Source: Sideroxydans lithotrophicus ES-1 (lineage in GTDB: Bacteria > Pseudomonadota > Gammaproteobacteria > Burkholderiales > Gallionellaceae). Taken from it: DNA of 64,000 nt. The stretch spans positions 1,665,063-1,729,062 of the forward strand of contig NC_013959.1 in the NCBI RefSeq assembly GCF_000025705.1, in the 5' to 3' direction. Positions 35,628-53,949 of the stretch are shown in pieces. Both the position numbers and the translations under genes were made by a program. Each line of letters starts with the position of its first letter. Within the stretch, counting starts at the first letter, position 1. The notes below the pieces were generated by a model, which worked only from the letters and a program-made list of their open reading frames with translations, was not told the origin of the DNA and made no database searches.

Positions 35628-35963
35628 TCAAACGCAACCGGTTGGTTTGGGCAGACCAGCGATCTTGCACGCCTGCTTGCCTGGGCCATAAGGGAACAGA
35701 CCATACAGATATTCGCTGTTGCCTTTTTCCGCACCCAGTTTCTTGCCGATTGCCTTGGTCAGGACACGCACGGCCGGAGCGATCTGATATTCCTCGAAAT
35801 ACTCGCGCAGGAAATTGACGACTTCCCAGTGCTGTTCGGTCATCGTGACGTTCTCGGTCTGTGCGATGTAATTCGCGACTTCGGTATTCCAATCGGCCAG
35901 GTTGGTCAGATAACCCTCTTCGTCCGTTTCGTAAGTTTTACCGCCGACTTCGATAGTTGCCAT
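35628..35963 (-). CDS. dsrC: DsrC, sulfur carrier with two C-terminal cysteines
   Basis: The 111-residue product carries both functional cysteines on the swinging C-terminal arm: Cys99 in GKQACKIAG and Cys110 as the penultimate residue in PTGCV. It receives sulfur from the DsrEFH/TusA relay, presents it as a persulfide to DsrAB and is recycled at DsrMK. A paralogue lacking both cysteines is encoded at 40567-40896. Confidence 0.96.
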   Translation of the reverse strand: MATIEVGGKTYETDEEGYLTNLADWNTEVANYIAQTENVTMTEQHWEVVNFLREYFEEYQIAPAVRVLTKAIGKKLGAEKGNSEYLYGLFPYGPGKQACKIAGLPKPTGCV

Positions 35964-41982: not shown

Positions 41983-42861
41983 ATGAACAATCCGTTCGAT
42001 CTGGACGATACAGCCAGCTACCAGGATTGGCGCAGGCACAAACTGTCCATTGCGCCTAAATCGACGGAAGACCTTATTGTCGAGGTTAACGATCCGCGCG
42101 CCCTGACACCCAACGAACACGCAGCACTGACAGAACGCATCCGCAGTTGCAACATGGCGATCTATGCCGGCAAGATGCACGATGCGGATACCGACATCCC
42201 GCGCCTGCTGGGAGAACAGTTCGGACTGAGACATCTCGATGCCAACTGGCTGGCCGGTGAAGACGGCATCTCGGAAATCCGTGTGTTCGACAACGGCACC
42301 CGCCAGCATTACATCCCCTACACCGATCGTCCGATCAAGTGGCACACAGACGGTTATTACAACCCGCCGGAACGCACCATCCGCGGCATGATATTGCATT
42401 GCGTGCGTAACGCCAGCAGCGGCGGCGAGAACCAGCTGATGGACCACGAATTGGCCTATCTGCTGCTGCGCGACGAGGACCCGCAGCATATCCAGGCCTT
42501 GATGCAACCCGATGCGATGACCATCCCGGAACGGGTGGACGACACCGACGGCGTGCGCGCCGCGCAGAGCGGCCCGGTGTTTTCCCTGGATTCGAGCGGG
42601 AACCTGCACATGCGTTATACCGCCCGTACCCGCAGCATAGAATGGAAACAGGATGCTGCGACGCTGGCAGCAGTCGCGGCACTGGAAGCCATCCTGGCAT
42701 CCAGTCCGCCGCACGTATTCAAAGCGCGTCTCGAGCCCGGCATGGGCTTGCTTTGCAACAATATCCTGCATGACCGCAGCGCCTTTGCCGACGACCCCAC
42801 CCATCCGCCACGTCTGCTCTATCGTGCACGCTATCTGGACCGGATATCGACGATCAGCTGA
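41983..42861 (+). CDS. TauD/TfdA-family Fe(II)/2-oxoglutarate-type dioxygenase
   Basis: The 292-residue product has the iron facial triad His121-x-Asp123 (WHTDGYYN) and distal His263 (ILHDRSAF), with an arginine near 281-283 (YRARYLD) for the cosubstrate. Family members hydroxylate taurine, sulfonates, herbicides or gamma-butyrobetaine. Given the operon, an organosulfur or sulfonate substrate is conceivable but unproven. The start follows the previous stop without a gap. Confidence 0.85.
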   Translation: MNNPFDLDDTASYQDWRRHKLSIAPKSTEDLIVEVNDPRALTPNEHAALTERIRSCNMAIYAGKMHDADTDIPRLLGEQFGLRHLDANWLAGEDGISEIRVFDNGTRQHYIPYTDRPIKWHTDGYYNPPERTIRGMILHCVRNASSGGENQLMDHELAYLLLRDEDPQHIQALMQPDAMTIPERVDDTDGVRAAQSGPVFSLDSSGNLHMRYTARTRSIEWKQDAATLAAVAALEAILASSPPHVFKARLEPGMGLLCNNILHDRSAFADDPTHPPRLLYRARYLDRISTIS

Positions 42862-43419: not shown

Positions 43420-43875
43420 CTACGGGCGTATGTAGGCCCATCCCTCGTGCTGTTTCCTTATTATTTCCACCACGCCGGCTGGAACATAGCCAATAGACGA
43501 CAGCATGTCCGGCTTGGTCAGCTTCATGTTTTTCATGGTGTTTTCGCATGCCACGATCCTGACTCCGTCTGCCAGCGCCTTGTCTATGCGGGATCCCACT
43601 TCGGATTCGAATTTGAGCATGTCGATTCCCGGGCCATAAGCGACGATCTCGACGTCGACCTTGTCTTTTCCGATTGCGTCCTGCACGTTCTTGGCGTTGT
43701 TGAGCGCCAGGTTCCATTTGGCTGGCACCGAGTCGCTAACCTGGATGACTACCTTCTCGCGTGCAAGCGTATTTTGCCCGGAAGCTGTGTCAGCCGCCTC
43801 AACGCCTGATGATGCAAAAGCGAGCGCGCAGAAGAATGCTGTTGCGACAACCTTGAGCCGAGCGATATGTTTCAT
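43420..43875 (-). CDS. Secreted DsrE-like protein
   Basis: The 151-residue product has a signal peptide (cut near VEAADT), so it is periplasmic. The mature part is of the DsrE/DsrF-like superfamily: KVVIQVSD strand, ALNNAKNVQDAIG helix, VDVEIVAYGPGIDML strand, then the single Cys110 in VRIVACENTM, and LLSSIGYVPAGVVEIIR...GWAYIRP. This arrangement, with one cysteine after the fourth strand, is found in sulfur carriers. It is the last gene of the sox string, after the YeeE-type transporter. It aligns with the periplasmic domain of the anti-sigma factor at 49169-49915. AAGGGGA precedes the ATG. Confidence 0.87.
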   Translation of the reverse strand: MKHIARLKVVATAFFCALAFASSGVEAADTASGQNTLAREKVVIQVSDSVPAKWNLALNNAKNVQDAIGKDKVDVEIVAYGPGIDMLKFESEVGSRIDKALADGVRIVACENTMKNMKLTKPDMLSSIGYVPAGVVEIIRKQHEGWAYIRP

Positions 43876-43927: not shown

Positions 43928-45040
43928 TCAGCTTTCCCGCATCAGCAACGCATACTGGATCTTCATGGTTACGGCGGCACCAGCGATGATGGAAGCCAGC
44001 GCCAGAATCGAACCTAAAGAGAGCGTGGAAACGCCGGTTATGCCCTGACCGATCGTGCAGCCCATGGCTGTCACGCCGCCGAACCCCATCAATGTGCCGC
44101 CGATGATGTGGTAGAACATGTCCTGCGCAGAAGAAAATGCTTCCCAGCGAAAAGACCTGGTGAACAGCGCGTAGAGGAATGAACCGATGCCGACGCCAAA
44201 GACTGTGGCAATACCAAAGGTGACGATGTTCGAGGTGTCGGTCCAGTATGCCCAATATTCCAGGGTATAGGCTGTAGGGGCGACAAAGGACATCGATTCC
44301 GCCAAGTGGGAATTGGTGCCCAAGTACGTCATTTCCAGTGTATCCGGATTCTCGCCATAGCCGAGGTGCCCTGCCACGAACCAGCCTCCGACCACGAGCA
44401 ATCCTATGATCAGGCCGGCAAGGTTGTTATCCAGGTTCTTGCGAAATTTTTCGTCCTTGAACACAAAGACCATCATAGCCAATCCGATCACGCCGGCCAT
44501 CACCATCTGAAGGGTATTGGGTGCCAGGCCGCCGATGCCGGACAGAAGGGCCGGCAGTGTCTGGCCATGATCCAGTTGGATGGTGACCGCGGGCGCTTGC
44601 AGCACGTTGACGCGGAATGCACCGAGGATGCCTTTCAGTGTCACCAAGGCGGCAAAGCCCAGATATATGAACACGACAACAGACCTCAGGTTGCCGCCCC
44701 CGACGCGCACCAGCGTCTTGTTGGCACAGCCGGAAGCCAGCGTCATGCCGACACCGAAGCACAACCCACCGACGATATAGGCAAGCCAGGGGAAATTGCT
44801 TCCGGTATAGATGGTCTTGGACAAATCGAGATAGCCAAAATAGGCGAGCGCATTGGTTCCTATCATCGCCACCGCAATGGCGAGCAGCCAGGCGCGCATG
44901 CGCCCCCAGTGTCCCATGTTGACCACATCCGAAACCGCACCCATGGTGCAGAAGTTGGTCTTGTTGGCGATGAATCCGAACACGATACCTAAACCGAATC
45001 CCCACCAGACTATAGTCTTTGTCACAACAGCCGCATCCAT
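43928..45040 (-). CDS. YeeE/YedE-family sulfur transporter
   Basis: The 370-residue polytopic membrane protein has about nine helices. Three conserved cysteine motifs of the YeeE/YedE (TsuA-like) family line the pore: NFCTMGAV, SGCANKTLVRVG and MGCTIGQGITG. Homologues import thiosulfate or other sulfur compounds. In this place it may bring sulfane sulfur from the periplasmic Sox system to the cytoplasmic Dsr pathway, or export it. It follows soxB by about 100 bases and precedes the secreted DsrE-like gene. Confidence 0.88.
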   Translation of the reverse strand: MDAAVVTKTIVWWGFGLGIVFGFIANKTNFCTMGAVSDVVNMGHWGRMRAWLLAIAVAMIGTNALAYFGYLDLSKTIYTGSNFPWLAYIVGGLCFGVGMTLASGCANKTLVRVGGGNLRSVVVFIYLGFAALVTLKGILGAFRVNVLQAPAVTIQLDHGQTLPALLSGIGGLAPNTLQMVMAGVIGLAMMVFVFKDEKFRKNLDNNLAGLIIGLLVVGGWFVAGHLGYGENPDTLEMTYLGTNSHLAESMSFVAPTAYTLEYWAYWTDTSNIVTFGIATVFGVGIGSFLYALFTRSFRWEAFSSAQDMFYHIIGGTLMGFGGVTAMGCTIGQGITGVSTLSLGSILALASIIAGAAVTMKIQYALLMRES

Positions 45041-45139: not shown

Positions 45140-46855
45140 TCAAGCGACACCGTCGTTATCCTTCACGCCGATCATTTTCGGCAGGTTGAGTTTGCGCGGC
45201 GTGATCACTTTCTTGTCCCGCAGATAGCTGGTCACGACATCCCAGATCGGTTCGCCTGTCACTCCCTCGGACACAGGAGCCCATCCGGCCACCTTGTATT
45301 TCCGGTTCGGATCGAGCGCCTTGCCGTTCAGCATCATGTTGTTGATGCGCTTGCCTATGCTCTTGTTTACATCGCATGTGTAGCTTATGCCACCGACGCG
45401 CACCATGTCCCCGCCTTGCTGTTTGTAGGGATCCGGATTGAACAGGTTGTCGCAGACATCTTCCATGATGGCCTTGATGGTTGCGCCGGTCATCTCGGTC
45501 AGCGTCGTTTGCGGATAGGTGATCGCGGTCTGATCCATCACATGCTCGAGAGTGATGTCCTGCCCGGCCAATAGCGATGTACCCCAGCGGAAACCCGGCG
45601 AGAACGCCGCATCCGCTCCTTTCACCTCCATCAGCGCGTCCAGGATCAGTTGATCGAAAGTACCGTTGAAATTTCCCCTGCGGTACAGCGTCCCTTCCGT
45701 GACGGCAAGTTTTTCGCCGAGCTTTTCTTTATACGGTGCGCGCACGGTTTCGATCAGTGCAGCCATTTCCTTATCGGGCTCGATCAGGTTGGCGAAGACC
45801 GGCAACAACTTGTACTTGAAGCCTGCCACTTTGCCATTCCTGACATCCAGATCGAGCACTCCAAGGAACTTGCCGTTGGAACCGGCATTGGTCACCAAGG
45901 TCTGTCCGCGGGCATTCTTGACTATGGATGGCGCTGGCATGCCGTCATGGGTATGCCCGCCCATGATGGCGTCGATGCCGCTGACGCGCCCCGCCATCTT
46001 GATATCCACGTCCATGCCGTTGTGCGAAAGCACCACGACCACCTGTGCGCCCTTGGCCCTTGCCTCGTCGACGACTGTCTGCATGTTGTCGTCCTGGATG
46101 CCGAAGCTCCAATCCGGAGTCATGTAGCGGGGATTGGCGATCGGCGTGTAAGGAAACGCCTGGCCGATGATCGCAACAGGGATGCCGTTGATCGGCTTGA
46201 TCACATATCCCGGAAAAACGGGATCGCCAAAATCATTCGTCTTGATATTCTGCGCAACGAAATCCACTTTGCCTTTGAAGTCGTTATCGACGACCTGCTT
46301 GACCCGCTCTGCGCCGAAAGTGAATTCCCAGTGCCCCGTCATCACATCCACACCGAGGAGCTTCCCTGCATCCACCATGTCCTGTCCCTTGGTCCACAGT
46401 GCTGTGGCGGACCCCTGCCAGGTGTCTCCGCCGTCGAGCAGCAGGGAGCCGGGACGGCTGGCACGGATCTTCTTGACCAGCGTAGCCAAGTGGGCGAAAC
46501 CTCCCACCTTGCCGTAGGTGCGGGCAGCGTTGTCGAAATCGAGATAGGTGAACGCATAGGCCTCCGGCGTTCCCGGACGGATGCCGAACGCCTTGAGCAG
46601 GTGTTCGCCCACCAGATGCGGCGCCTGGTTGAGGCCCGGCCCTACCCCGATGTTGACATTGGGTTCCCGAAAATAGATAGGCAACAGCTGTGCATGGCAA
46701 TCGGTGATATGCAACAGGGATACATTGCCGAACGCAGGCAGATCGTAGAAGCCGCCTGCATCGGTGGCTGACAGCGCAGCACGGCTGTTCAATGCGAAAC
46801 CCGATGCGGCAGCCACAGCCAGAACTTGCATGAACTCGCGACGGTTCATAGGCAT
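45140..46855 (-). CDS. soxB: SoxB, thiosulfohydrolase
   Basis: The 571-residue product has a Tat signal (NRREFMQVLAVAAASG). It is a 5'-nucleotidase-like dimanganese enzyme: LLHITDCHAQ, GGDTWQGS, TGHWEF, and MGGHTHDG carry the metal ligands. It hydrolytically releases sulfate from the sulfonate group bound to SoxY. AGGAG lies seven bases before the ATG at 46855. There is no soxCD in the window, so sulfane sulfur left on SoxY must go elsewhere, consistent with the dsr genes. Confidence 0.95.
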   Translation of the reverse strand: MPMNRREFMQVLAVAAASGFALNSRAALSATDAGGFYDLPAFGNVSLLHITDCHAQLLPIYFREPNVNIGVGPGLNQAPHLVGEHLLKAFGIRPGTPEAYAFTYLDFDNAARTYGKVGGFAHLATLVKKIRASRPGSLLLDGGDTWQGSATALWTKGQDMVDAGKLLGVDVMTGHWEFTFGAERVKQVVDNDFKGKVDFVAQNIKTNDFGDPVFPGYVIKPINGIPVAIIGQAFPYTPIANPRYMTPDWSFGIQDDNMQTVVDEARAKGAQVVVVLSHNGMDVDIKMAGRVSGIDAIMGGHTHDGMPAPSIVKNARGQTLVTNAGSNGKFLGVLDLDVRNGKVAGFKYKLLPVFANLIEPDKEMAALIETVRAPYKEKLGEKLAVTEGTLYRRGNFNGTFDQLILDALMEVKGADAAFSPGFRWGTSLLAGQDITLEHVMDQTAITYPQTTLTEMTGATIKAIMEDVCDNLFNPDPYKQQGGDMVRVGGISYTCDVNKSIGKRINNMMLNGKALDPNRKYKVAGWAPVSEGVTGEPIWDVVTSYLRDKKVITPRKLNLPKMIGVKDNDGVA

Positions 46856-46942: not shown

Positions 46943-47770
46943 TTACTTGCGGAACACCGGGGTCTGCATCGGCAGACCGTTGCTCATGTAAGTCAGGAAA
47001 TATTCCAGGTCGTTATAATCCTCGCTGTTGCCCTCTTGCGGCTTTTCGCGCGTATTGTTGTTGCATTGCATGAATCGCTTCTGCAACGTGACGATATCCG
47101 TGCCGGCACGGAACTCAGGCCAGTGGGTCGCCTGGCCGATCATCATGGAAAGCTGCTCGCTACGCAGGAACTTGCCCGCATTCTGCACATGGCAACTGGC
47201 ACAGGAAAAATTCAGCAAGCCGCGTCGAGTGTAGTAGTAGGTCTTGCCTTTCTCGTATGCGGCAAGCGCATCCTTGCCCTTGACCTTGATATTGACCTTC
47301 ATCCCGTCCGACAAGCTTCTGGCATAGGCGGTAAGCAGGCCCATATCCGAATCGGCGTACTTCAGTTCCTTTTCGCCATTCTTTTTCAGGCAGGCATTGA
47401 TGGCATTCTCGAAAGTCACCACACGCTTGGTGGCCTTGTCGAAATAAGGATAGTTGCCGGCGATATTGCGGCCGCCATGCGGGAAGCAGGATGCAAATGT
47501 CTTGCCGTTGGCAAATGACGTTTCCCACACTTTCTGCCCCTTGTCCAGATCGATGGAATAAGGGGGAAAAACCATGATGTCGTCATACTGACTCTTGGCA
47601 TCGGGATTCATGGCCAGAGCCCCGTAGATGTAATCGTTGAACTTGATGTTTGGGAGCGTCTCTTTGTAATGCGCGATCATTGCATTGCGATCCTGCTCCG
47701 GACCGGCGACGGCCAGAAAGGATATTGAGTACAAGAACGCAGCCAGCAGGGATAGATATTTTATTTTCAT
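46943..47770 (-). CDS. soxA: SoxA, c-type cytochrome subunit
   Basis: The 275-residue product has a signal peptide. One classical heme site CASCH is visible (FSCASCHVQNAGKF), and the active-site cysteine that carries a persulfide ligand is in FMQCNNNTREK. The N-terminal site is CFPHGG instead of CxxCH, so this is the mono-heme type of SoxA. With SoxX it joins thiosulfate to the SoxY cysteine. Confidence 0.94.
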   Translation of the reverse strand: MKIKYLSLLAAFLYSISFLAVAGPEQDRNAMIAHYKETLPNIKFNDYIYGALAMNPDAKSQYDDIMVFPPYSIDLDKGQKVWETSFANGKTFASCFPHGGRNIAGNYPYFDKATKRVVTFENAINACLKKNGEKELKYADSDMGLLTAYARSLSDGMKVNIKVKGKDALAAYEKGKTYYYTRRGLLNFSCASCHVQNAGKFLRSEQLSMMIGQATHWPEFRAGTDIVTLQKRFMQCNNNTREKPQEGNSEDYNDLEYFLTYMSNGLPMQTPVFRK

Positions 47771-47815: not shown

Positions 47816-48130
47816 TCAGGCTACGACCACTTCGCCATCGAATACCGTGCCGAGATTGTCGACCGCATGCACCGCGACCTTGTCACCAACCTTAGCTCCC
47901 TTGACCCTGAAACCGACAAAGGGGTTTCTCGATATACCGACGCCCCATTGCATGTCCAGCACCATCTTGCCGTTCAGCGTGGCACTGACCTGATTGATAA
48001 AGTGTGCGGGAATCAGATTCCCGGTCTTCTTGTCCTTGCGCTGTCCCGTTTCCATGATGTGCTGGATCAGCACTTTCACATCCACCGCATCCCCCTGCAT
48101 CGTCGCGCGCATTTTCATTGCTTCAGCCAT
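47816..48130 (-). CDS. soxZ: SoxZ, sulfur-carrier complex subunit
   Basis: The 104-residue SoxZ product has the typical MRATMQGDAVDVKVLIQHIMETGQRKD start. It forms the SoxYZ carrier with SoxY. It has no signal peptide, as it is exported with SoxY through Tat. Gaps to soxY and soxA are about 50 bases each. Confidence 0.95.
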   Translation of the reverse strand: MAEAMKMRATMQGDAVDVKVLIQHIMETGQRKDKKTGNLIPAHFINQVSATLNGKMVLDMQWGVGISRNPFVGFRVKGAKVGDKVAVHAVDNLGTVFDGEVVVA

Positions 48131-48182: not shown

Positions 48183-48644
48183 TTAACCGCCGCAGCCACC
48201 GATCGTCACCTTAACTTCGCGGCTATTCGTATAGACCTTGCCACCAGCCTTCACCGATGCCCGCACGATCGAAGTCGATGCCATTTTGACGCGCGTTGCG
48301 ATGAATGGCTCGGCACCGTTCATGAATTCAAAGTCGGCGATCATCGGATTGGGATTCTTGTCCACAAAGATCGCGATCGACGTAGTTCCCGGAATATTGC
48401 TGCTGACTTCAACCGGCACCACGGCACCGTTTTCAGCTATGTCCGGCACCTTGATCATGATGTCTTTGTTCTCGGCAGCCCCGGCGTAACCTGCATTTTT
48501 CATGGCATCGGCGGTATCCTTCGATGTGAAGGCCAGATTGTTCCAGGTAGCCGCAAATACCCCACTGGTCTTCAGCAGCCCCGCCGCACACACCGCCATC
48601 ACGGCACCCATGCTTTTCAGAAAATTCCTGCGTAGATGATTCAT
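48183..48644 (-). CDS. soxY: SoxY, sulfur-carrier protein
   Basis: The 153-residue product has a Tat signal (RRNFLKSMGAVMAV) and ends with the GGCGG motif whose cysteine binds the substrate. Start at 48644 was chosen because GGGAG stands five bases upstream and the Tat motif follows. Confidence 0.95.
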   Translation of the reverse strand: MNHLRRNFLKSMGAVMAVCAAGLLKTSGVFAATWNNLAFTSKDTADAMKNAGYAGAAENKDIMIKVPDIAENGAVVPVEVSSNIPGTTSIAIFVDKNPNPMIADFEFMNGAEPFIATRVKMASTSIVRASVKAGGKVYTNSREVKVTIGGCGG

Positions 48645-48672: not shown

Positions 48673-49026
48673 TCAAAGACCCATTACGTAATCGATAACC
48701 TGGTCGATTTCCTGCTCCGTCAGAATCTTGTTCCTGCCAAAAGGCGGCATGACCGATTCGGGGTTCGCCACGGTGGCATCCCATATCTGGGCACGCAATT
48801 TGGCGGTATCGGGGAAACGTGCCTTCATCCCGGCAAGCGCAGGTCCGATATTGCCGGCCGCCTCGACCTTGGGGTCGCTCGGAATGGCATGGCAGGCAAT
48901 GCAATTGCCCTTGTTTTTGTCGAAGGCTAGCTTCCGGCCTGCGTCAGAGTCTGCTGCGACCGCATTCAAATTGGCCAATCCCAATAAAGCCACAAGAGAA
49001 AGCAAAAAAGTCATTTTAATGCGCAT
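48673..49026 (-). CDS. soxX: SoxX, cytochrome c subunit
   Basis: The 117-residue product has a signal peptide (cut near AVAADS), one heme motif CIACH and the distal Met in ESVMPPFG. It pairs with SoxA. The start at 49026 has a GGGAGG site about nine bases upstream. It is the first structural sox gene, preceded by a 142-base gap after the anti-sigma gene that may hold a separate promoter; I see no clear sigma-70 boxes in that gap. Confidence 0.93.
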   Translation of the reverse strand: MRIKMTFLLSLVALLGLANLNAVAADSDAGRKLAFDKNKGNCIACHAIPSDPKVEAAGNIGPALAGMKARFPDTAKLRAQIWDATVANPESVMPPFGRNKILTEQEIDQVIDYVMGL

Positions 49027-49168: not shown

Positions 49169-49915
49169 CTATATTCGGGCATAGTCCCAGCCCTGCTGCA
49201 GGCGCTTGTTGATCTCCTCTGCCGCAGATGACGCAACCCCGGTGTTAGGCAACAGGTGCACTGCGATGCCGCTACTGCGCAAAGTTCTTATGGCCTGACC
49301 ACAGGCCAGAAAACCAAGATTCGGATACTTGGCCTGCATCAAACCGATTCGCTTCCCATAAGGCGACACATCTGCTCTTAACAAATCGACGCCCTCGGCA
49401 TTCGCCATGATCTCCACATTGAGCTGTCGATTCTCATGCCTGCTGGCTTCCAGCAGACTTTCCGCCTCATCCAGGACGGCCTTGAGCCTGAGCGGATTGG
49501 AAGTACTGACCTGGAAGATGATATTGCCCTGTCCGGTCGCCGAGTTAATGTTGTGTGCCGCCCTGGACACGTACGCGACATAGGAGTGATTCCTTGATTC
49601 CGACTTTGTAGCAATGAACCAGCCCGAGACCCCGCCCAGCAAAAGCAGCAACACACAGGCCGCTATTCTTCTGATGTTTTGCACATACTGCGGCCGTCTC
49701 AAGCGCATGACATTTTCAGCTGCCGCTTCATGCATCGGAGGGTGATGGTAGGCATGCTTCACCATCTCTTTCAGCCCGCGCAGTTCGCACACCCGCCCTT
49801 TCAATGCATCGTCCCGCCCGATCACATCGAGGATCTCACTTTTCTCGTTTGTCTCAAGTTCGTTGTCGACAAAGGCATTCAGCAATTCATCTGAGATGTT
49901 TGCATTGCTCTTCAT
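49169..49915 (-). CDS. Membrane anti-sigma factor with periplasmic DsrE-like domain
   Basis: The product has 248 residues. The cytoplasmic part (about 1-80) has the anti-sigma signature SDELLNAFVDNELE. One transmembrane helix (about 84-102) follows. The periplasmic part (about 128-248) aligns over its length with the secreted DsrE-like protein at 43420-43875: NIIFQVSTS, NVEIMANAEGVDLL, GFLACGQAI with Cys205, and QQGWDYARI. The ATG overlaps the sigma factor stop (ATGA), and AAGGAG lies just upstream. A sulfur-relay fold as the sensor of an anti-sigma factor is unusual; it suggests release of the sigma factor when sulfane sulfur or a partner protein binds. Confidence 0.85.
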   Translation of the reverse strand: MKSNANISDELLNAFVDNELETNEKSEILDVIGRDDALKGRVCELRGLKEMVKHAYHHPPMHEAAAENVMRLRRPQYVQNIRRIAACVLLLLLGGVSGWFIATKSESRNHSYVAYVSRAAHNINSATGQGNIIFQVSTSNPLRLKAVLDEAESLLEASRHENRQLNVEIMANAEGVDLLRADVSPYGKRIGLMQAKYPNLGFLACGQAIRTLRSSGIAVHLLPNTGVASSAAEEINKRLQQGWDYARI

Positions 49916-50472
49916 ATGACTCTCCTTATATGACTGACTCGTGCCGTCTGCTGCGGAGCGAGTTCTTTCAACAGGATCTTCAAGGATTGCCGTGCGCGGC
50001 ATAAGCGACTCATGACTGTTCCGATCGGAATGGACAGGATTGCAGCGACCTCGATATAGGGAAAATCTTCCAGGTCCACCAGGGTCAGCACCTGGCGCTG
50101 CCCCATGGGCAGCATGGCAACGGCATTCCGCACGCGGTCGACGATCTGCGTCTGCGCATGCTCGTCTTCCGGCGTGGTTTCATGGATGCAACGGTGATCT
50201 TCCAGCTCTTCGATATCATCCATGTCCCGGTGTTGACGGAAATGGTCACGCCAGCAGTTAGCCAGTATGCTGAACAGCCAGCTATTCATTAATGCCGGAT
50301 CGCGCAGCTGAGCGGCATTCTTCAGTGCCTTGATCATCGTTTCCTGTACAAGGTCGTCGGCGAGCGCGGCGTTATGGCTCCAGGAGAAAGCGACGCGATA
50401 TAGCTTCGGACGAATTTGTTCCAATTGCTGCTGGAATGCATCTACACCACAGAACAAGGAGAAAATCTTCAT
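49912..50472 (-). CDS. ECF-type RNA polymerase sigma factor
   Basis: The product has 186 residues. Region 2 is seen in RVAFSWSHNAALADDLVQETMIKALKN and NSWLFSILANCWRDHFR; region 4 in AVAMLPMGQRQVLTLVDLEDFPYIEVAAILSIPIGTVMSRLCRARQSL. The start is ATG at 50472, with AGGTGA nine bases upstream; an in-frame GTG at 50478 is less well spaced. It is the first gene of the string that continues with its anti-sigma factor and soxXYZAB, so sox is the likely regulon. An inverted repeat lies about 60-90 bases upstream. Confidence 0.92.
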   Translation of the reverse strand: MKIFSLFCGVDAFQQQLEQIRPKLYRVAFSWSHNAALADDLVQETMIKALKNAAQLRDPALMNSWLFSILANCWRDHFRQHRDMDDIEELEDHRCIHETTPEDEHAQTQIVDRVRNAVAMLPMGQRQVLTLVDLEDFPYIEVAAILSIPIGTVMSRLCRARQSLKILLKELAPQQTARVSHIRRVI

Positions 50473-50533
50473 CGCCACGTTTCACCTGAAGGTTGGAATT
50501 ACGGTCAACATACATATAGACGCAACAGCATGC

Positions 50534-50562
50534 GGAAATATTCCATCGATTCGAAAATTTCC
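50534..50562. promoter_or_regulatory. Inverted repeat between ECF sigma gene and DUF302 gene
   Basis: Arms GGAAATATTC and GAAAATTTCC match as an inverted repeat at 9 of 10 positions, with a nine-base spacer (CATCGATTC). It sits in the divergent region between the sigma factor gene and the DUF302 lipoprotein gene, so it is placed to control both. It is seen directly; the binding protein is unknown. Confidence 0.55.
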
Positions 50563-50611
50563 ATCACCGCGGCTGGCAGGGTATAGACTATTCACAATAT
50601 CCTTCCAGAAC

Positions 50612-51196
50612 ATGAGAGACCTGATGACCCCGATACACTTCCGCTGTTTTATATGGTGTTGCATGTTATTTGCCGCCTTGATGTTGACAGGGTGCAGCAA
50701 CATGAATAAAGGCGGCGATGTCCACCTGCAACCAATCCAGCCCTTATCCAAATCCGATCAGCCTTCATTTCCCGCTTCCGGTAGCACAGCAGACGGCCAT
50801 ATGGCCGTTTTCACCAAGACGGGAAAATTCGAGGATGTCAGGGACGATGTCGAGATGGCGATCACCGGACGCGGATTGGTGGTCAACAATGTTTCCCATG
50901 TGGGCGAGATGCTGGAGCGCACCGGCAAAGACTTGGGAGATGACAGACAGATTTACCTCAAGGCCGAAGCACTGGAATTCTGCAGCGCAGTCGTATCGCG
51001 CAAGATGATGGAAACCGACCCTGACAATATCGTGTTTTGTCCCTACATCATTTCCGTTTACGTGCTGCCGGGAAAGCCGAACGAAGTACGCATCGCATAC
51101 CGCAAACCCCAGATCGTTGGCTCTCAAGCTTCGCAGGCCGCACTCAAGGCGGTCGATGAACTGCTTTCCGGCATCGTCAAGGATGCGCTGCAATAA
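50612..51196 (+). CDS. DUF302 lipoprotein
   Basis: The 194-residue product has a lipoprotein signal ending LMLTGC. The rest is a DUF302 domain: TGKFEDVRDDVEMAITGRGLVV near the start and LEFCSAVVSRKMMETDPDNIVFCPYIISVYVLP. Two cysteines (EFC and VFC) are conserved-looking within it. DUF302 proteins are often near sulfur or redox genes, but no function is established. It is divergent from the ECF sigma factor gene. The start at 50612 is tentative; ATG at 50624 is an alternative with GAGAG before it. Confidence 0.8.
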   Translation: MRDLMTPIHFRCFIWCCMLFAALMLTGCSNMNKGGDVHLQPIQPLSKSDQPSFPASGSTADGHMAVFTKTGKFEDVRDDVEMAITGRGLVVNNVSHVGEMLERTGKDLGDDRQIYLKAEALEFCSAVVSRKMMETDPDNIVFCPYIISVYVLPGKPNEVRIAYRKPQIVGSQASQAALKAVDELLSGIVKDALQ

Positions 51197-51243: not shown

Positions 51244-51957
51244 TCATTTTTTCTTCGGGCTGGACGAGGTGAGACGTTCGTCGAGCAGCTCCAGCCTCAG
51301 CCAGCCGGGATTCATGATCCCGTCCTCGAACACCAGGGTGGGCGTCACGACGATATTCAGCTTCTTCGCCGCCGCGGCAATGCGGGTCAAGGCAGAGGTA
51401 TCACAGGTCTTTCCCGGTTTCGGGTCCTTCCACTTCAGCATATGATCCTCCCAGGCTTTCAGCCGGTCGGATGAGCACCAGATCGCCTCGGCCTTCTCCT
51501 TGGAACCGGGCAATATCGGCAACACGAAAGTGTAGATCGTGGCATCGGTCAGGCCGACCATCTCCTTTTCCTGCCTCCTGCAATAGGGACAGTTCGGATC
51601 GGTGAAAACAGCCAGTCTTCTCTTGCCGTTGCCTTTCACATTCTTGATCGCCAGATCAAGCGGCAAGGAATCGAAATCGATCGCATAAAGTTGTTTTTCC
51701 CTTTCTTCAGTCAGGTTCTGCATCGTATGCATATCGATGATGTTGCCTGAAAAAAGGTAGGACATATTTTCGTCGGTATAGACCAGTTGGTCGTTCAAGA
51801 CCACTTCATACAAGCCGAGATAGGGAGTCTTGTGGACACTGATGACCTGCTCATAGGGAAATCTCTTTTCCATCGCGGCCTTGATAGCGGCCTCATCGGC
51901 CAAAGCCGCATTGGAAAAGAAAAACAACAGCAATACCAAATAAGAGAATGCGTTCAT
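51244..51957 (-). CDS. DsbC-like periplasmic disulfide isomerase/reductase
   Basis: The 237-residue product has a signal peptide (cut near AALADE). An N-terminal dimerisation domain (about 20-85) is followed by a thioredoxin fold with active site Cys123-Pro-Tyr-Cys126 and cis-Pro in VVTPTLVF. Two further cysteines near IWCSSD and KTCDTS match the structural pair of DsbC. It can reshuffle or reduce disulfides, for example on SoxY or cytochromes. AGGA stands eight bases before the ATG. Confidence 0.88.
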   Translation of the reverse strand: MNAFSYLVLLLFFFSNAALADEAAIKAAMEKRFPYEQVISVHKTPYLGLYEVVLNDQLVYTDENMSYLFSGNIIDMHTMQNLTEEREKQLYAIDFDSLPLDLAIKNVKGNGKRRLAVFTDPNCPYCRRQEKEMVGLTDATIYTFVLPILPGSKEKAEAIWCSSDRLKAWEDHMLKWKDPKPGKTCDTSALTRIAAAAKKLNIVVTPTLVFEDGIMNPGWLRLELLDERLTSSSPKKK

Positions 51958-53478: not shown

Positions 53479-53949
53479 TCAAATGAACAGACAGATGTCC
53501 GTATCCCCGGCGAAGCTCATGAAGGTTGCTGCACCGCCGTATTCGCACTGCTCGATGAATTCGCTCTTGTCGAATTCAAACAAATCGACCGTCATCTGGC
53601 AAGCGATGAACTTCACGTCTGCCTCCAGGCACAGGTCGCGCAATTCCTGCAGTGAGGCAACGCCATGTTTCTTCAACTTCTGCTTCATCATCATGGTTGC
53701 CATGGATTCCATGCCTGGCAGCATCTGCACCATCACCGGCATCGGGATCGGCATCGGCATCGCTGGATTGGCCAGCGGGCTGATCATCACGCTGGACAAG
53801 TCCTTGCGCAGCAATTGCAGGCCGTAGAAGGTGAAGAACACCTGCACGTCGTATCCCAATGCGGCAGCGGTCGAAGCCAGGATGAATGGCGGATACGCCA
53901 TGTCGAGTGTGCCCTTGGTGGCGATGATCGCCATTCTTTTGGTAGTCAT
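53479..53949 (-). CDS. DsrE2-like protein
   Basis: The 156-residue product is of the DsrE2 (DsrE/DsrF/DrsH-like) type: KRMAIIATKGTLDMAYPPFILASTA at the start, a Met/Pro-rich hydrophobic segment (about 60-88) that may be membrane-associated, and Cys in VKFIACQMTVDLF. DsrE2 accompanies TusA in many sulfur oxidisers, usually with a rhodanese; no rhodanese is present here. AAGGGG precedes the ATG. tusA lies 35 bases upstream on the same strand. Confidence 0.92.
   Translation of the reverse strand: MTTKRMAIIATKGTLDMAYPPFILASTAAALGYDVQVFFTFYGLQLLRKDLSSVMISPLANPAMPMPIPMPVMVQMLPGMESMATMMMKQKLKKHGVASLQELRDLCLEADVKFIACQMTVDLFEFDKSEFIEQCEYGGAATFMSFAGDTDICLFI

Follow-up and report, generated by a model that had tools for sequence, protein, structure and literature searches.

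How the regulators of sulfur-oxidizing bacteria sense external sulfur has been called poorly understood, and the sensing route that has been described brings the signal in to a repressor (PMC11582611). Cytoplasmic cysteine-based sulfur sensors are already known: the ArsR-type repressors SoxR and sHdrR control sox by sensing sulfane sulfur (PMC10451225), and SoxR needs SoxT1B as a signal transduction unit (PMC11582611). Control of sox by ECF sigma factors is known as well. In Arcobacter butzleri, mutants showed that two ECF sigma/anti-sigma pairs, sigma2 and sigma7, change sox expression, with opposite effects on a broad metabolic set of genes; the parts of that report covered here describe no DsrE domain, signal or cysteine (PMC3445524). 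In Sinorhizobium meliloti, the sigma factors RpoE1 and RpoE4 (ECF26) and their anti-sigma factor lie beside a sulfur-oxidation gene, sorT, which is also their target. They are autoregulated and activated on thiosulfate or taurine, the proposed signal is sulfite made inside the cell, and no DsrE-type anti-sigma is described there, the sole hit for DsrE in its text being DsRed (PMC3511301).

Here we describe a sigma/anti-sigma system that is real, conserved and apparently undescribed, in which the membrane anti-sigma factor carries a DsrE-type domain. The window that we analysed is a stretch of 64,000 nucleotides from Sideroxydans lithotrophicus ES-1. On its minus strand an ECF sigma factor gene (49912-50472; Pfam Sigma70_r2 1.4e-13, r4_2 8e-14) is followed by the gene of a membrane anti-sigma factor of 248 aa (49169-49915, by translation and family alignments), whose start overlaps the sigma stop by ATGA. 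Downstream on the same strand come soxX, a cytochrome c gene (48673-49026; Pfam Cytochrom_C 3e-8, named also by its place before soxY), soxY (48183-48644; SoxY 2.2e-33), soxZ (47816-48130; SoxZ 8.5e-36), soxA (46943-47770; SoxA-TsdA_cyt-c 1.4e-27), soxB (45140-46855; NCBIfam TIGR04486 1.6e-268), a gene for a YeeE/SoxT-type sulfur transporter (43928-45040; Pfam Sulf_transp 7.2e-74) and, last, one for a secreted DsrE-like protein with a cysteine at position 110 (43420-43875; Pfam DsrE 4.6e-9, above the cut-off). The sigma domains and the gene order agree with the initial annotation, which had placed an ECF sigma/anti-sigma pair at the head of a sox string. By gene numbers, the A. butzleri sigma genes, unlike this one, are not beside sox (PMC3445524).

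That annotation knew of no described anti-sigma factor of this design, and neither did we find one. A search of the main text of the literature gave no DsrE-type anti-sigma among the matches listed, judged by title and the start of the abstract, and the word DsrE does not occur in the main text of a study of class I anti-sigma factors (PMC7406223) or of a review of ECF sigma factors (PMC8103513).

We compared the outer part of the anti-sigma factor with the secreted protein and with known structures. The C-terminal half and the secreted protein (43875-43420) share 35 identical residues over 140 columns (25%; BLASTP E 1e-11 in a single comparison), and the alignment contains the motifs that had been claimed for both: QVS, VEI, G-(V/I)-D-(L/M)-L, AC and GW-x-Y-x-R. 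Searched as a single sequence, the window anti-sigma has no Pfam DsrE match even at E 1; phmmer with this sequence alone reaches the DsrE-type protein 1L1S at 6.7e-4. A profile of the anti-sigma family matches the PDB chains 1L1S (9.6e-17) and ST0148 (2PD2; 1.4e-9) as well as the engineered 8UJA (5.1e-6), and 13 of 48 family members match Pfam DsrE at E <=0.1, the best at 4.1e-5. Because both the family profile and its members match DsrE models, we take the resemblance to be homology and not chance.

Structure prediction led to the same place. AlphaFold2, run with an alignment of 48 of the 67 available rows, gave a mean pLDDT of 85 for the whole chain and about 97 for residues 130-247, which are predicted to adopt a DsrE alpha/beta fold. 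Foldseek with this model returned 1L1S at E 3.9e-8 (TM 0.88 by target length), and all five matches at E <=0.001 are DsrE-like or engineered (1L1S, 8UJA, 2PD2, 3PNX and 2QS7). The matched chains of the DsrE superfamily (108-160 aa) have no anti-sigma domain; MTH1491 (1L1S) and ST0148 share the fold predicted for the outer part of the anti-sigma, and in the alignment each has a cysteine where the anti-sigma has one. By fold, by sequence profile and by a cysteine at the family position, the outer domain (residues 129-247; 49175-49531, minus strand) thus falls inside the DsrE superfamily, as first proposed, and the profile and structure matches rule out a chance alignment of two DsrE-like stretches. 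A profile match outside that superfamily, which the initial annotation had named as refuting its proposal, did not come up. In a tree of 120 DsrE domains the anti-sigma domains form one clade (99/91) and the secreted ones several groups, though long branches and few columns make the detail of this tree unsure. The only member of the anti-sigma clade labelled as secreted (L068_S2) is the second anti-sigma copy of its locus.

The domain holds a single conserved cysteine, Cys205 (codon 49301-49303, minus strand), which ends the strand 200-205 of the model and aligns with a cysteine of 1L1S and of 2PD2. It is present in all 125 aligned family rows, a set that includes 15 near-duplicates and counts the window twice, and none of the 125 has a second cysteine beyond the membrane helix, which supports the cysteine picked out in the initial annotation. 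The predicted helix is the best hydrophobic window of the protein (residues 84-102; 49610-49666, minus strand; mean hydropathy 2.3). In 27 of the 125 rows it is weak (best 19-residue window <1.6). The balance of lysine and arginine places the N-terminus inside in 115 rows and does not in the other 10, so that by the positive-inside rule the DsrE domain is predicted to lie outside the membrane, in the periplasm. Between helix and domain, from Trp99 to residue 131, runs a tether of 22-77 residues (median 31) in which the mean frequency of the major residue is 0.27, against 0.61 in the N-terminal domain and 0.55 in the DsrE domain.

The N-terminus is helical in the predicted structure. Known anti-sigma models match it weakly (zf-HC2 in 7 of 48 members, best 0.0037), and against NF052375 it scores 15 bits where the cut-off is 100. 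Zinc-binding anti-sigma factors (ZAS) carry the motif HxxxCxxC. This motif does not occur within the first 90 residues of any of the 125 rows. Cys43, on the cytoplasmic side, is conserved in 120 of them. A DNA-binding repressor of the ArsR type as in SoxR was rejected likewise: there is no such Pfam or fold match, and one cysteine lies beyond the helix, not the two that bridge sulfur in SoxR and sHdrR (PMC10451225).

To see how widely the pair occurs we turned to other genomes. Among 158 genomes of the same family 20 have a match, and 16 of these, the window's included, encode a full-length anti-sigma; the other 15 proteins are 33-59% identical to that of the window. A scan of contigs at species level gave 66 loci from beta- and gammaproteobacteria, most of them metagenome-assembled, with carriers in Gallionella, Sideroxydans, Sulfuricella, Sulfurimicrobium, Thiobacillus and Acidiferrobacter. 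The sigma gene lies directly upstream of the anti-sigma gene in the same orientation in 65 of the 66, and the exception (L097) is cut by a contig edge. In 398 genomes of the phylum, matches from outside the order cover the DsrE part alone or the DsrE part with the helix. Alphaproteobacterial profile matches have the DsrE part but lack the N-terminal domain and were not accepted as members of the pair; at seven such loci, a tblastn search with the proteins of the window turned up no sigma factor. One locus (L068, 9480-12402) has two tandem sigma/anti-sigma (DsrE) pairs, two genomes (G673 and G557) each have two nearby full-length anti-sigmas, and elsewhere a genome has up to three.

The surroundings of the pair vary. 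In the window, a putative lipoprotein gene (50330-51196, plus strand) diverges from the sigma gene and contains a stretch resembling DUF302, which Pfam scores at 21.5 bits (2.1e-4) where the cut-off is 23; a cluster that looks similar to this lipoprotein occurs in 6 of the 66 related loci. A gene for a DsbC-type thiol-disulfide isomerase (51244-51948, minus strand, by Pfam) lies 5' of sigma. A methionine-rich DsrE_2-type protein (53479-53949, minus strand; 9.9e-51) is encoded beside a FadL-type porin, and relatives of both are found near the pair in two loci (L035 and L038). At the far end, a TauD-type dioxygenase gene (41983-42858, plus strand; 2.5e-20) followed by a glutaredoxin/GST-like frame is convergent with the sox string. 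Two neighbours named by eye recur in the set, one desaturase-like (fatty acids) in 22 of 66 loci and one resembling an outer-membrane porin in 19. The porin-like gene, seen in L039-L052 among others, lies 2-6.4 kb upstream of the anti-sigma gene. Many Acidiferrobacter-like loci (L071-L096) have the pair and no sox or adjacent secreted DsrE. Clustering the neighbours of loci without sox gave no interpretable shared partner.

Upstream of the sigma gene we found a conserved motif that resembles an ECF-type promoter, GGAATA-N16-CGTC, which in the window is an exact match 72 nt 5' of the sigma start (50519-50544, minus strand). We examined the regions upstream of sigma in 62 of the 66 loci and in the window, leaving out L040, L046, L063 and L097 as too short or without sigma. 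With spacers of 13-19 allowed, 60 of these 63 regions contain the exact motif, where shuffled sequences predict 0.095. The 61 sites in them have a spacer of 16 in 58 cases, of 15 in two and of 18 in one. Of 59 further loci, 15 are >=80% identical to the discovery set; 37 of the other 44 have the motif with spacer 16 before sigma, or 36 of 43 once the window itself (L102) is removed, one of those counted (L157) lying 999 nt from sigma and perhaps due to chance. A copy facing the opposite way occurs in 27 of the 63 regions, at 22 of 24 loci with a divergent secreted dsrE and at all five with a divergent sox operon.

Over the whole 66 loci (1.055 Mb) we counted 104 sites with a spacer of 15 or 16, where equal base frequencies would predict about 4. 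Sixty stand before sigma, 24 before secreted dsrE, three before dsbC, five before soxY (one of them, in L055, intragenic) and one before yeeE; among the 11 with no assigned gene, one is 76 nt upstream of a further gene for a secreted DsrE-like protein. The dsbC sites (L056, L058 and L060) are 100-123 nt upstream of the gene, so dsbC may belong to the regulon there; the window dsbC has no site. In another locus (L050) a site lies 215 nt before the porin-like gene. These conserved positions are the strongest evidence we have that the sigma factor, which probably recognises the motif itself, activates its own gene together with that of a secreted DsrE and, in part of the lineages, sox; the sequences support this reading well.

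Beyond the pair the motif gave no defensible genome-wide regulon. The window genome (3.0 Mb) holds six exact matches, where about 5.7 are expected at equal base frequencies on two strands with ten fixed bases, and none to the reversed pattern that served as control; only the site before sigma has a frame of >=100 aa starting <=150 nt downstream. Twelve other carrier genomes hold 32 matches to GGAATAWW-N14-CGTC (reversed control, 5), and 16 of these are at the pair itself, 11 before sigma and five pointing the other way; among the five, a DsrE-like frame was seen to be faced by the G348 site only. The remaining 16 are scattered, several within long frames. In the window, no motif with <=1 mismatch stands before soxX or the secreted dsrE, and the two one-mismatch matches are fewer than the 2.7 expected. 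The dsr genes have no exact site; the single one-mismatch match of their region (35865-35890) is inside a 111-aa frame. Since S. lithotrophicus ES-1 up-regulates both sox and dsr on thiosulfate (PMC8788666), another regulator is needed for dsr.

The secreted paralogue accompanies the pair in most loci, which supports the link first drawn from the window. A six-frame search found its gene next to the pair in 35 of 66 loci, divergent in 24 and co-directional downstream in 11, and within the flanks of 10 more. Exactly one cysteine is present in 57 of 60 secreted DsrE domains. The window protein groups with secreted DsrE proteins of relatives; the nearest in the tree (L088_S0) is encoded on the same strand, beyond soxB of the divergent sox genes of its locus. 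This association raises an alternative, which we think unlikely, that the DsrE domain is a docking site and not a chemical sensor. The secreted protein, expressed from the same promoter, would bind it in a mixed DsrE oligomer, binding would either stabilise the anti-sigma as negative feedback or activate, and the cysteine would serve assembly or an intermolecular disulfide. The motif copies that face divergent secreted dsrE genes fit such a partnership, as do the 11 co-directional genes, the association being seen also where no sox was found, the usual single cysteine on each side, and the several separate secreted subgroups that take this position. Yet no secreted DsrE was found in the examined flanks of 21 of 66 loci, six of which have <1.5 kb on one side, and an invariance of 125 in 125 exceeds what docking would seem to need of the cysteine.

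Sox genes lie in the examined flanks of 21 of the 66 loci. In 16 they are co-directional after the anti-sigma gene, with gaps of 28-391 nt and no motif in the gap. In the five with divergent sox each operon has its own motif; four sites are 74-155 nt before soxY, and in L066 the first gene of the operon is yeeE. The gap between the anti-sigma gene and soxX in the window is about 140 nt and also has no motif, so control of sox there would rest on read-through of the gap. It could be argued instead that sox of the window genome has its own promoter in this gap, served by a different regulator, and that the pair controls only itself. The length of the gap and its lack of a motif speak for this, and three genomes of the same genus (G133, G124 and G155) have soxB and no anti-sigma. 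But consensus scans of the gap on the same strand found no sigma-70-like promoter and no terminator-like stem, and gaps in relatives are as short as 28-32 nt; we judge a separate sox promoter quite improbable.

In the proposed search for the pair beside sox in other genomes, sox is near the pair in those 21 loci and absent from the examined flanks of 45, and sox is not a universal target. Co-occurrence across genomes is tighter. Counting as carriers those with a near full-length anti-sigma match, and shorter matches as non-carriers, soxB is present in 65 of 66 carriers against 84 of 303 other genomes in a sample of the class (369 genomes), and above the curated cut-off in 37 of 37 against 103 of 263 in a sample of the order (300 genomes); shared descent inflates these figures and the Fisher values computed from them. 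One genome (G503) lacks soxB, one of the 65 (G547) has a soxB fragment below the cut-off, and in a third (G326) the anti-sigma matches in two pieces. Taken with the gene linkage and the motifs of the divergent operons, these numbers uphold the link of the pair to sox that was first drawn from the window. They also make it very improbable that the pair responds to envelope or thiol stress, from oxidised or misfolded periplasmic thiols, with linked sox as a downstream passenger, a reading that could draw on the dsbC motifs, on DsbC in the examined flanks of nine of 66 loci and on the loci without sox, but that sits badly with the near-constant soxB, with five divergent sox operons under their own motif and with DsrE as a sulfur-trafficking fold.

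The reading that we hold to be probable is that the pair is a transmembrane ECF signalling unit with which sulfur oxidizers monitor sulfur: it would regulate its own expression, and its DsrE domain would read periplasmic sulfur through Cys205. The N-terminal helices of the anti-sigma would hold the sigma factor at the inner face of the membrane, and the outer domain would report the sulfur state of the periplasm. Modification of Cys205, or binding of a partner, would then inactivate the anti-sigma. Since the tether is poorly conserved and of such variable length, inactivation would probably proceed by proteolysis. A flexible tether argues against rigid transfer of a signal and favours a release step in which the anti-sigma is cleaved or a partner binds. 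The freed sigma would recognise GGAATA-N16-CGTC and raise its own operon, which in the window would take in soxXYZAB, the transporter and the secreted DsrE downstream; elsewhere it would raise divergent dsrE or sox operons. This regulatory wiring is well supported by the conserved sites and gene arrangements, from which it is deduced.

What loads the cysteine is a separate matter. Most likely Cys205 would receive sulfane sulfur or thiosulfonate, to which a lone cysteine in a DsrE fold seems suited. Either would come from turnover of thiosulfate or tetrathionate and would reach Cys205 directly or by way of the secreted DsrE protein that is regulated together with the pair. DsrE3A of Metallosphaera cuprina, a sulfur-trafficking protein unlike the anti-sigma, reacts with tetrathionate to form a cysteine-S-thiosulfonate (PMC4175335), and tetrathionate is the only product of thiosulfate found in ES-1 (PMC8788666). 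A conserved cysteine, usual in secreted DsrE proteins too, does not by itself prove sensing. Iron-grown ES-1 cells show a lag in thiosulfate use (PMC8788666), and this lag and the induction by thiosulfate fit an inducible switch and do not identify which. We infer, as a good hypothesis, that the signal is sulfur loaded on Cys205. In its fullest form the proposal is that one periplasmic cysteine of the DsrE type takes on sulfane sulfur or thiosulfonate, either directly or through a co-regulated secreted DsrE relay, and thereby switches an ECF sigma commanding sox in beta- and gammaproteobacterial sulfur oxidizers. This form is tentative, and we would place it a little below an even chance.

The system offers a residue that can be tested, a promoter motif and a candidate regulon of small size, and it hints at what a group of secreted DsrE-like proteins may do. 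If the proposal is true, a fold that carries sulfur has been turned into a signal receptor, and the sulfur signal need not be imported: a widespread system would sense sulfur where it lies, in the periplasm.
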